Below are positions 46,674 through 51,704 of a stretch of 64,000 nucleotides of DNA, piece after piece. This DNA is from Rhodothermales bacterium. GTDB lineage: Bacteria; Bacteroidota; Rhodothermia; Rhodothermales; Bin80. Numbering within the stretch: position 1 is the stretch's first letter; every line of letters starts with the position of its first letter. The stretch spans positions 2,540,380 through 2,604,379 of the forward strand of contig OX638318.1 in assembly GCA_951812585.1 (NCBI GenBank), written 5' to 3'. Made by a program: the position numbers and the translations under genes. Below the pieces are notes generated by a model. It ran no database searches. It was not told where the DNA came from and saw only the letters and a program-made list of their open reading frames with translations.

Positions 46674-47684
46674 CTAGTCTTCCCTCCGTTTGAGCACCAT
46701 CAGGGTTGCATCGTCCTGCAACGCCTGTTCTGCGCGCCATGCGCGTCCGGCCCGACGGATCGTTTCGGCAATGCCTTGCGCCGGCAGGTGGCCGCATTCG
46801 GCAAAAAGGGTCTGCACCCGATTGGCCGTCAGCATCTGACCCGCAGGGTTGACGAGTTCGGTTACGCCATCGGTTACCAGCAGCACGGCATCACCAGGTT
46901 CCAGTCCAATAGAACATCGCTCGTATGGGAACTCCGTAAAGGCCCCCAGGGGCATGCCTTTGAGCACCACCTGACGCACAGTGCCCGTATCCTTGCGATA
47001 GACGAAGGCTGGGGGCATGCCGGCAACCACAAGATCCAGCACCCCGCTGTCGTACCGGCCTACGGTCAGGCTCATGTACAGGCCCCGCAGATTCAATCTT
47101 TTGAGTGTGGTGGTAAGCTGGCGCACAAGGCCCAAGAGGTCCGGCACGTTTCCTAGCGCCTGGAAAAGCGACTTGGTAGCGGTTACCATCATGCCCGCTT
47201 TGGTGTCGTGACCCGTAGCATCTCCGATCGCGATGGTAAGCACGCCGTCGCCGCAAATATTGAAGTCGTAGTAGTCACCGCCGACTTCCGTGGCGGTCCG
47301 CATGAACGTTGCAATATCCAGTTCGGCGTGGTCCGGAATGGGGGATGCCAAGAGCGACTGCTGCGCAGCCCGGGCGGTGTCAAGCTCCCGGGTCTTGCGT
47401 GCGTAGTCCGCCTGCAGCGCGGGTGTCGCCAGGGTAGGCGGCAAGTCGTTAACAAACTGGTCGGGCCCGACCGCATTGTAGCGCACAATCAATTGCCGTA
47501 CCCAGCTGCGCTTGTGGCCTGTGACCTGTGCGATTTCGGCGATGACCTTGCCCAGGCTCTTGAGATAGATGATCTGCCAGTAGGTGCGTTCTTCTGCACC
47601 CAGGCTGCGCCGGTAGCGGTCGAAGATCTCGCTGCGCGCGAGATGGCTTGCAAGTGGGACGAATTGCGGATCGTTTTCTGCCAT
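46674..47684 (-). CDS. PP2C/SpoIIE-type serine phosphatase with transposase-like HTH
   Basis: 336 residues. Residues 25-75 (RSLGAEERTYWQIIYLKSLG, KVIAEIAQVTGHKRSWVRQL, IVRYNAVGPD) read as the helix-turn-helix found at the start of IS630-type transposases, including the typical RWxxxGxxG-like turn region in altered form. Residues 110-330 are a SpoIIE/RsbU phosphatase with VGGDYYDF, IGDATGHDTKAGMM, GRYDSGVLDLVVAGMPPAFV and LLVTDGVTE plus DDATLMVL as metal sites. RsbU-type phosphatases act on anti-sigma-antagonists or similar proteins. The sensor part is usually PAS, GAF or HAMP, so an HTH front is unusual. Convergent with the lipoprotein gene, 6 bp apart. Confidence 0.85.
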   Translation of the reverse strand: MAENDPQFVPLASHLARSEIFDRYRRSLGAEERTYWQIIYLKSLGKVIAEIAQVTGHKRSWVRQLIVRYNAVGPDQFVNDLPPTLATPALQADYARKTRELDTARAAQQSLLASPIPDHAELDIATFMRTATEVGGDYYDFNICGDGVLTIAIGDATGHDTKAGMMVTATKSLFQALGNVPDLLGLVRQLTTTLKRLNLRGLYMSLTVGRYDSGVLDLVVAGMPPAFVYRKDTGTVRQVVLKGMPLGAFTEFPYERCSIGLEPGDAVLLVTDGVTELVNPAGQMLTANRVQTLFAECGHLPAQGIAETIRRAGRAWRAEQALQDDATLMVLKRRED

Positions 47685-48062
47685 GATAAGGCTATGGGCG
47701 GTGCAGCACGCTGTTTTCCCGCGCGTCCACTACACTCTTGAGTAGCAGGTTGATGTAATTCTTTGGCCGATACGCGGATGTACGGTGCTTTTTCGTTTAC
47801 GCGCACGGGCAGCGCTATGCCAAAGAGTCGGCTGCAGTTTCCGTGCCGCTTATTTCCAGCCGCTCCAGACGATGGGCAAAAGATACGGCATCGTTGGGCC
47901 GGGTTTCACCGCGCCTACGCAGGCATCGCCCACGAAGGGTCCCCGAATCGTTTTGCGCTGCCGAGGGCATTGTGCGCCTGTTGGACGGGGTTCCCGCTGC
48001 ATACGCAAGCCAGTGCGGGCGGGTAGAGCGAGGGCGGGCAGTTGCCGTCGCGCAGCGGCTCG
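47685..48062. other. Gene-free stretch between phosphatase and nrfA remnant
   Basis: About 380 bp. No supported gene or RNA. It probably includes the phosphatase promoter and DNA decayed along with the nrfA remnant. Confidence 0.45.
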
Positions 48063-48627
48063 CTAACGCATGGCGGTCTTGCGGGTGGCCAGCAGCTCCA
48101 GGGCCAGCACCTGTCCCTGGCGGGCATAGTCGGCGGCTTCGCCCAGGATGCGGGCAGCTTCCTGCGGGGCATGGAAGCCTATCGAATTTTCAGCCGCGAT
48201 AAAGTCCAGACGCCACTGAGCGCGCGCTGCAGCGCAAGCGATTCCGCCAGGTCCTCGTGCAATACTCCGGCGGCTTGCATGGCGATGATCGCATCCATCT
48301 GGTCCATGAGCGCCTTTGCGGCGCGCTGGAGCAAGTCGAAGTTGCGCTGCTGGATGCGGTCGACGCGCGCAGCCATCTCTTCTTTGGGGAAAAGATGGCA
48401 TACCTGGCACGCACGATTGATGTTGAGCAAAGGGCTGCGCACCCAGTGGTCGGACACCTTACTTGCACCGTCGCGCATGTACGGCATGTGGCAGTCGGCG
48501 CAGGCGACGCCGCTACGCGCGTGGAGCCCTGGCTCCATAGCTCAAACTCGGGGTGCTGCGCTTTCAGAAGCGGCGAACCAGTTTCGGCATGCCGATAGTC
48601 ACGGAACGGCTCCTGGCCGACTCTCAT
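48063..48627 (-). pseudogene. nrfA: Ammonia-forming nitrite reductase (cytochrome c552), C-terminal remnant
   Basis: Three frames must be joined. First [20 protein letters not shown], then after a shift near 48535 [20 protein letters not shown] (haem motif CADCH), [21 protein letters not shown] (haem CQVCH). After a second shift near 48225 comes [20 protein letters not shown] and [14 protein letters not shown] to the stop. This is the end of NrfA, the pentahaem periplasmic enzyme reducing nitrite to ammonium. The N-terminal half with the catalytic lysine-ligated haem (CXXCK) is gone and nrfH is not seen. Confidence 0.85.
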
Positions 48628-49606
48628 GAATCCTATCCTCGGTATCCGAACTATTGACGCGGCCCGCGCGCTAATGCCGGCCTTGCCCGGCCCACGCGCG
48701 GCACCTAATCCTGAGTAGCTGCAAGGCTGCTGATCTCTTTACAGGATCGCGGCCCACGATGTTCGCATCTGCGCTTTCGCAAGAGTCCCGGGCATCTGGA
48801 GGTAGGGAAACGTGCTTGAACCCAAGCACCGGCATCGTGTCCGTTCCCTCGCACGCCCAGGGATTCGAGGTCCTTGCGAACGTCTCCCGGCCGATGTTGC
48901 GAGGCCGGGAATCTGACTTCGTCTTGACCAGTCTGGTCCGGCAGGTGCGCGAGTATGTTTTCAGTACCCCAGATCTTCCCGATCGCTTAGAACCTGTATT
49001 AAACCGCGAACCCCGAGAGCGGGTTCGGAAGGGATTCATCTAAGGATAGTCCTCACGGAGTTTCCAGACGCGGATCTACGAGGCCTCCAGATTCCACGTT
49101 TCATACTGTCGTAGTGAGTACATGGTCGGAGTAACGGTTCGATGTGTCGATCGCCGCATCTCTCTGTGCTGCGATGAATGACCGTGGGCTCACCAGGCCG
49201 TCGGCGGTTCTGATGTGATTCTCGACTTTCGCACCTTTGCTTCGGATTGTCGGCCAGGCCGCCGCAACAGGCGAGTCCAGTCTGGCTGGCTATGACCGGT
49301 GGTGGCGACCTTGCAGCTCTGATGCAGGTTGCGATTTATCAGTGGTGACAGGGCACTCCGGGCTTTTCGTGCGGACTTGGCCCAGAGTCAATCCCCAAGA
49401 ATGCCCTTATGTTACGGGGTTGTCCGAGCCAAAACCGCCGAAGTCGAGTAAGGATGCCGCTTGTCCGTATGCCCGGCGCGTTGCAAGGCCAGCATACGGA
49501 CCCGGAAAAGGAAGCAGTCTGTGGCCCACACCAAAATCGATACCTCCCGAATGCGTAGCGCAGCGCGTAGCGTATCCGAACCGGCCCGACCGGGGCAGTC
49601 ACGCCC
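48628..49606. other. Long gene-free stretch
   Basis: Almost 1 kb with no frame that looks like protein on either strand. A six-pair hairpin GAACCC/GGGTTC occurs around 49009-49027. With the nrfA remnant next to it, this looks like a zone of gene decay; anything earlier that it coded is no longer readable to me. Confidence 0.5.
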
Positions 49607-50996: not shown

Positions 50997-51704
50997 TTAA
51001 GGACTGATGCTGAAGCCGAACACCAGGTATGACACCTCGTGCGTGGGGTTCAAGATGTATGCCACGGATAGCGGAAGGCTGAACTGGTCGGTGATCTTGA
51101 GCTCTGTTTCTGCAGAAACCCCCATGTTGATGACGGAAGCACTTGCAACCGCATAGAATGCACTCTCGCCCGGTACCATGCCGATGGTCAATCCCATGGC
51201 CGTGCCGCCGATCTCAAACGGCAGGCTGCCTTCCAGGTAGATCGAACGATCGGGGTCGTTATGCGCCATGAACGCCGCATAGAGGGTGATCGGAAACGAT
51301 TCAGGGGCCGAATAGCTTACGTATGGCTCAATCCAGTGTGAGCCAGCGCCATCCCCCTCAAAGTTGAAGAAATCAATTTCTCCAAGTCCAGGGAAATAGT
51401 AGTCCGTGATACCAAACCCGAAAGAACCCGCACTTTCCGTCTCCAAGCTGTAGCCCACCCAGAGATCGTGCTCGTTGGCCTCCGCTCCGTCCGCAGCGAT
51501 GGAATAGGATGCCCAAGAGCCAATTTCAATATTGCCCCCGCTGACTGAAAACGAAGGCTGCACGCTGAAGGACTGACCGAAGTCGAAGCCGCGCCACACA
51601 TAGCGACTGACAAAGTCTGCGCCAAGGCTAACAGACTGCGCGCTGGCAATGCCCAAAGGCAAAAGCGACCAAAGTAAAATGCAGTAGTAGTGTCGATTCG
51701 TCAT
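50997..51704 (-). CDS. TorF-like putative outer-membrane porin
   Basis: 235 residues from ATG 51704 with signal peptide LLWSLLPLGIASAQ. The mature start SVSLGADFVSRYVWRGFDFG is the hallmark of the CHP02001/TorF family of small barrels, and the protein alternates beta-strands to a final aromatic strand (VSYLVFGFSISP). Likely an outer-membrane barrel of about 10-12 strands; the substrate is unknown. The open frame upstream to 51977 looks non-coding (mixed composition, no signal), so the internal ATG is chosen. Confidence 0.85.
   Translation of the reverse strand: MTNRHYYCILLWSLLPLGIASAQSVSLGADFVSRYVWRGFDFGQSFSVQPSFSVSGGNIEIGSWASYSIAADGAEANEHDLWVGYSLETESAGSFGFGITDYYFPGLGEIDFFNFEGDGAGSHWIEPYVSYSAPESFPITLYAAFMAHNDPDRSIYLEGSLPFEIGGTAMGLTIGMVPGESAFYAVASASVINMGVSAETELKITDQFSLPLSVAYILNPTHEVSYLVFGFSISP

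Follow-up and report, generated by a model that had tools for sequence, protein, structure and literature searches.

The phosphatase gene and its domains

The window, by which we mean the whole 64,000-nucleotide stretch analysed, carries on its reverse strand a gene for a phosphatase preceded by a helix-turn-helix (HTH) region. In its own genome this open reading frame (ORF) lies at G000:C1:2587056-2588063. The features referred to below were as follows.

46674..47684, reverse strand: whole coding sequence of the HTH-linker-PPM phosphatase, 336 amino acids, ATG start, stop included
47445..47663, reverse strand: residues 8-80, N-terminal HTH of the IS630-transposase type, first HTH only (profiles, tblastn, hhalign)
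47475..47513, reverse strand: residues 58-70, presumed recognition helix (alignment with transposases)
47346..47423, reverse strand: residues 88-113, helical linker with RKTRELDTARAAQQSLL (helix predicted at low confidence; linker comparison)
46686..47288, reverse strand: residues 133-333, SpoIIE/PPM phosphatase domain (PF07228 and motifs)
51000..51704, reverse strand: gene for a putative porin of the TorF/Gcw_chp family, which in relatives usually lies next to the phosphatase gene, upstream and in the same direction

The C-terminal part matched the Pfam SpoIIE profile PF07228 at residues 146-333 (E 3.3e-34; 119 bits against a cut-off of 25). The window protein showed the motifs EVGGDYYD (133-140), GDATGH (154-159), TDG (271-273) and DD (324-325). 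The general forms GGDxYD, GDxxGH, [ST]DG and DD, which we take to be the acidic metal-site motifs of SpoIIE/PPM phosphatases, were intact in all 15 fusions of an alignment that left out the frame-broken copy of genome G007, with SGDYYD in some. No DDE catalytic domain was present in the window protein, whose C-terminus is SpoIIE, and Pfam showed no recognisable ligand-binding domain in it. These features predict a cytosolic SpoIIE-family (PPM) serine/threonine phosphatase with activity. SpoIIE/PPM-type phosphatases normally turn stress programmes on by dephosphorylation.

Homology of the N-terminal region to IS630 transposases

To the window protein by itself the HTH profiles gave weak matches. 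For HTH_29 the first 115 residues gave E 3.2e-4 and 21.2 bits, under the Pfam cut-off of 28.1, with the match spanning residues 45-79. NCBIfam transpos_IS630 scored E 0.0019, aligning residues 37-89 with the start of the model (positions 4-55 of 299 only). The HTH_29 score of this single sequence, under the cut-off, would fit a similarity that had arisen by chance, or two genes joined in assembly. However, all 16 N-termini of the fusions found in the window's family matched HTH_29 at E <= 0.01 (best 2.4e-8), and an hhalign comparison of these 16 with four IS630-type N-termini gave a probability of 99.7% and an E of 5.6e-26 over 76 columns (residues 6-81). The fusion was found in all 16 family genomes examined, so it is neither a chance similarity nor an assembly join. 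An artefact is refuted on both counts, and we give it next to no weight. The original prediction of a transposase-like HTH ahead of a SpoIIE/PP2C phosphatase at 46674-47684 was thus borne out, both by the profile comparisons and by the 15 other genomes that have the same fusion.

The fusion was a single ORF in 15 of the 16 family genomes; in G007 the frame breaks later in the gene. This copy (G007:C14:24461-25155; L076, L040) was broken within the phosphatase domain, through either decay or an assembly error.

A tblastn search of plasmids with residues 1-82 returned six records, including cyanobacterial relatives with E values down to 3e-10, and two of the six were annotated as the IS630-like ISAva6 transposase (E 3e-6). 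We inspected 14 plasmid HTH loci, drawn from 38 listed rows in which some records occur twice. Seven were annotated as a transposase, or came before an ORF that bears this annotation, and the other seven were labelled HTH proteins or hypothetical proteins, or were unannotated. HTH_32, the second HTH of IS630 transposases, matched none of the 16 fusion N-termini at E <= 0.01; what comes next after the first HTH in transposases, a basic stretch and the second HTH, is gone from the fusions. Judged by these profiles, the fusions retain one of the two transposase HTHs, the first. A search of solved structures gave nothing usable as a relative of the HTH; its best match was a repeat protein of which each repeat was insignificant alone. 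Two AlphaFold runs, of two sequences each, were of low confidence (mean pLDDT 35.6 and 51.9), too low for a surface to be mapped.

Distribution of the fusion

The N-terminal 115 residues were matched in 17 of 99 relatives. Sixteen of these were the members of the window's family, within the Rhodothermales, which have the fusion, and the 17th (G037) had a 207-residue ORF with both IS630 HTHs, including HTH_32, and no phosphatase. No fusion was seen in the 83 further relatives beyond the family's 16. Across 395 genomes of the phylum there were ten matches, nine in family members and one in G305, a 160-residue ORF whose matched part scored as an ordinary HTH_29 protein; no fusion was found in the other 386. 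In a phage collection five records matched, all starting at residue 99 or 100, and therefore have no fusion; viral contigs gave no match. Phosphatases on Streptomyces and Streptantibioticus plasmids were considered as further candidates, with seven of the 227 matching plasmid records covering at least 80% of the window protein. They were rejected: the three inspected (H44, H45, H57) showed no HTH and looked PAS/GAF-type when their sequences were read by eye.

Origin of the fusion

The closest phosphatases outside the family reached 48-49% identity in the phosphatase domain and were mostly larger proteins. The nearest found were sister phosphatases from the order Rhodothermales (loci L064-L074), which are like the fusion in phosphatase domain and linker but carry an extracellular or membrane sensor in place of a soluble HTH. 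Ten sisters were checked with Pfam. Three had propeller/Y_Y_Y (Reg_prop/Y_Y_Y) domains and three 7TMR-DISM, two of the latter matches being under the cut-off; a further three had an unassigned N-terminal region that looked by eye like a membrane-bound sensor, and one was short with no second domain. The 42 residues ahead of the catalytic motif align between a sister (RKTQELEEARQLQLSML) and the window protein (RKTRELDTARAAQQSLL), and over these 42 residues the sister linkers were 36-52% identical to the window protein (12 sequences). This common linker places the join at the linker. Since the nearest HTH-less phosphatases mostly have extracellular or membrane sensors on the same linker, the transposase HTH occupies the position of such a sensor.

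A first tree (30 rows, without L002, L004 and L075, which the motif pattern missed) placed the fusions on one side of a branch with support 77/81. In a second tree, from which L003 and L068 (long branches) and L014 (frame-broken) were also left out, the best topology needed two changes, while a single fusion clade was not rejected (p-AU 0.50). More weight falls on the conserved locus. A co-directional TorF/Gcw_chp ORF lay directly upstream of the phosphatase in 13 of 15 regions from other family members, with gltB beyond it, and FolD and MscS ORFs lay on the other side in most family regions, giving the order gltD-gltB / TorF / phosphatase / folD-mscS (neighbours named from the window's members of the ORF clusters). 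The two exceptions were L034, where the contig ends too near to tell, and L046, which is without TorF. These regions show that the fusion is inherited at a conserved locus, which makes a single origin likely.

In the window itself about 3 kb separates TorF from the phosphatase and holds a PQQ-repeat protein and a cytochrome c552 remnant. The latter (48182-48538, reverse strand) matched PF02335 with E 3.3e-27 over model positions 238-339 of 438. No full-length ORF was found around it (47900-48630), apparently a decayed gene of the nitrite-reductase type.

Conservation of the HTH

Among 15 family members the HTH had a mean pairwise identity of 0.63, and the PP2C part one of 0.64. Ahead of the PP2C part it was unevenly spread, at 0.77 for helices 1-2 (residues 20-42), 0.52 for the recognition helix and 0.72 for the linker. 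The PP2C part showed dN < dS in all ten pairs and the HTH part in nine of ten, the remaining pair giving no dS, and both parts are thus under purifying selection. Compared with 15 IS630-type proteins, four residues were near-fixed and specific to the fusions (F21 and D22, each in 15/16; K42 and F77, each in 16/16), in part through kinship, since the 16 fusions are closer kin to one another than the comparison proteins are.

These values bear on the idea that the HTH is a passive fold, either a stabiliser or a constitutive dimeriser, with the phosphatase regulated by its expression level only. A protein with no recognisable ligand-binding domain could work in this way, and in genus g6 the gene has a conserved, promoter-like upstream block of its own (see below). 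However, an HTH that is conserved as much as the catalytic domain, and that has near-invariant residues specific to the fusion, makes such a role improbable.

Recognition helix and upstream element

The recognition helix gave a mixed picture. W61, V62, R63 and R68-Y69-N70 were mostly as in transposases, while positions 58-60, 64 and 67 varied across the family; the base-contacting positions were assigned by inference from HTH geometry. Site 59 was E in 8/16 fusions and site 60 was D or E in 8/16. Site 67 was L, I or V in 12/16 fusions, compared with R or H in 9/15 IS630-type proteins. Even within the window's genus residues 58-60 differed, being KRS in the window protein and TPQ in a relative. 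Variability of the recognition helix is by itself weak evidence, because the recognition helices of transposases vary too. The helix of the window protein was basic, with a net charge over residues 57-70 (+4) that no other of the 16 fusions exceeded. Charge of the whole HTH was dropped as a test of DNA binding, the means being 2.62 for the fusions and 2.87 for the IS630-type proteins, no difference.

The element ACSGTATA-N12-YGTGTATA lay just upstream of the phosphatase gene in genus g6 (L035-L043, L045). Searched at zero mismatches in the 16 family genomes, it occurred exactly once per genome in eight, always upstream of the fusion gene; it was found in g6 only and was missing from the window's genome. 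With up to two mismatches allowed, the element matched 60 times and its backwards control 72 times. The upstream block scored 0.77, compared with 0.63, 0.63 and 0.68 for the best blocks upstream of TorF, GltB and FolD, respectively. Blocks upstream of MscS, GltD and c29 scored higher, the MscS and GltD stretches being coding sequence of the preceding gene. The g6 element may serve as a promoter or as an operator.

An operator would suit a phosphatase gated by DNA, in which the HTH binds a site such as the g6 element and occupancy dimerises or localises the enzyme, or an autoregulator with a phosphatase tail. The transposase-like residues kept in the recognition helix, the basic helix of the window protein, and an element found once in each of eight genomes before the fusion gene, with a block score above those of TorF, GltB and FolD, all speak for DNA gating, as does the eukaryotic precedent of SETMAR, described as retaining mariner DNA binding (PMC6326780). 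However, the positions that would read the DNA are not conserved across the family, nor even in the window's genus, and are acidic in many of the members that have the g6 element. The second HTH of IS630-type proteins is missing, the exact element is confined to g6 and could be a plain promoter, and the MscS, GltD and c29 blocks score higher than its own. We consider DNA gating a possible but rather doubtful explanation. DNA binding as such is possible on the residue pattern, most so in the window's own protein.

Proposed role of the HTH

Our preferred reading, to which we give a probability of about one half, is a PPM phosphatase switched through a coil, with the captured HTH as a dimerisation or protein input and a STAS-type protein as substrate. 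The HTH would act as an input module more probably than as a sequence reader, because in most members the reading positions vary and are often acidic or hydrophobic; helices 1-2, by contrast, are the part conserved best. A protein contact or self-contact through helices 1-2 is accordingly more likely as the input than a fixed DNA sequence. Several points stand against this reading: the window's recognition helix is basic, as DNA binding would want, the charge of the HTH does not differ from that of IS630-type proteins, the g6 upstream element fits an autoregulator, and no partner gene adjoins. The original prediction had left the choice between a DNA-binding and a protein-binding module undecided; a recognition helix that varies and is often acidic or hydrophobic, the loss of the second HTH and the conservation of helices 1-2 now lean towards the protein module, without deciding it.

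In the activation of SpoIIE, as described in PMC5468089, the helix preceding the phosphatase dimerises and shifts two switch helices, and PMC12143880 describes a coiled linker that works similarly in RsbU and its relatives and proposes that inputs are exchangeable. With both a linker and a phosphatase domain in the window protein, the same dimer switch is the simplest reading, by analogy. In our proposal the transposase HTH stands in for the extracellular or membrane sensor of the relatives and would dimerise or bind a partner. Through this contact the helical linker would become ordered as a coiled coil, and the coil would bring the two phosphatase domains together as a dimer and set the switch helices. 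Metal would then bind, and the enzyme would dephosphorylate its substrate, for which a STAS-type anti-anti-sigma protein from the partner-switching set of the genome is the likeliest candidate.

Comparison with known systems

The fusion resembles SpoIIE/RsbU/RsbP-type PPM phosphatases in its catalytic domain, its motifs, the kind of helical linker and presumably the dimer switch. It differs in its input, those named in PMC12143880 and PMC5468089 being the RsbU N-domain, PAS, GAF, response receiver and HAMP; the terms 'HTH' and 'DNA-binding' are both absent from the main text of PMC12143880. With IS630-family transposases (ISAva6 and two-ORF relatives) it has the first N-terminal HTH in common, colinear over about 75 residues, but it lacks the second HTH and the transposase catalytic domain and has a phosphatase attached.

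Two eukaryotic captures of Tc1/mariner HTHs went opposite ways. The F-box A2 proteins of Caenorhabditis likewise have a captured HTH in a protein-regulating system, theirs coming from Tc1/mariner transposases, a group related to IS630; their HTH is reported not to bind the inverted repeats in EMSA, and protein interaction is proposed (PMC12062965). They differ from the fusion in being a eukaryotic multigene family of the ubiquitin system. SETMAR, a SET methylase joined to Hsmar1, likewise combines a protein-modifying enzyme with a mariner transposase DNA-binding domain, but DNA targeting and binding are retained, the transposase part lies downstream of the enzyme, and its hosts are anthropoid primates (PMC6326780). 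The bacterial fusion may have gone either way. A bacterial counterpart of SETMAR, in which the captured HTH sits on DNA (its own promoter or mobile-element ends) and gates phosphatase activity, seems unlikely; if true, a DNA site would be a direct input to sigma-factor partner switching.

We found no bacterial HTH-SpoIIE fusion in the literature (open PMC papers). Here a transposase HTH would be the input of a bacterial signalling enzyme, a family-wide case to set beside the eukaryotic examples of the Tc1/mariner group. Nature thereby provides a test of whether PPM inputs are exchangeable through the coiled linker, as PMC12143880 proposes, and of whether transposase HTHs, once captured, retain DNA reading or turn to protein contact.

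Partner-switching genes in the family

The suggestion in the original prediction that the phosphatase may serve partner-switching control is supported by gene content in the family and not by the locus. RsbW-type ATPases and STAS domains were each found in all 16 family genomes, which makes such an output plausible. No RsbW- or STAS-type gene adjoined the phosphatase in the window or in the family regions, where its neighbours were TorF, gltBD, a lipoprotein/TonB receptor, folD and mscS. From gene content, partner switching is the likely output of the fusion phosphatase.

Of the ATPase genes in the window's genome, two (near 853 and 865 kb) lay by a phosphatase and a STAS gene. A third RsbW-type ATPase, at 2,715,805 (G000, about 2,715.8 kb), lay apart from any phosphatase match. 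This gene (L122 5767-6189, forward strand) matched HATPase_c_2 with E 4.2e-28 and is, by exclusion only, a candidate partner of the fusion phosphatase.
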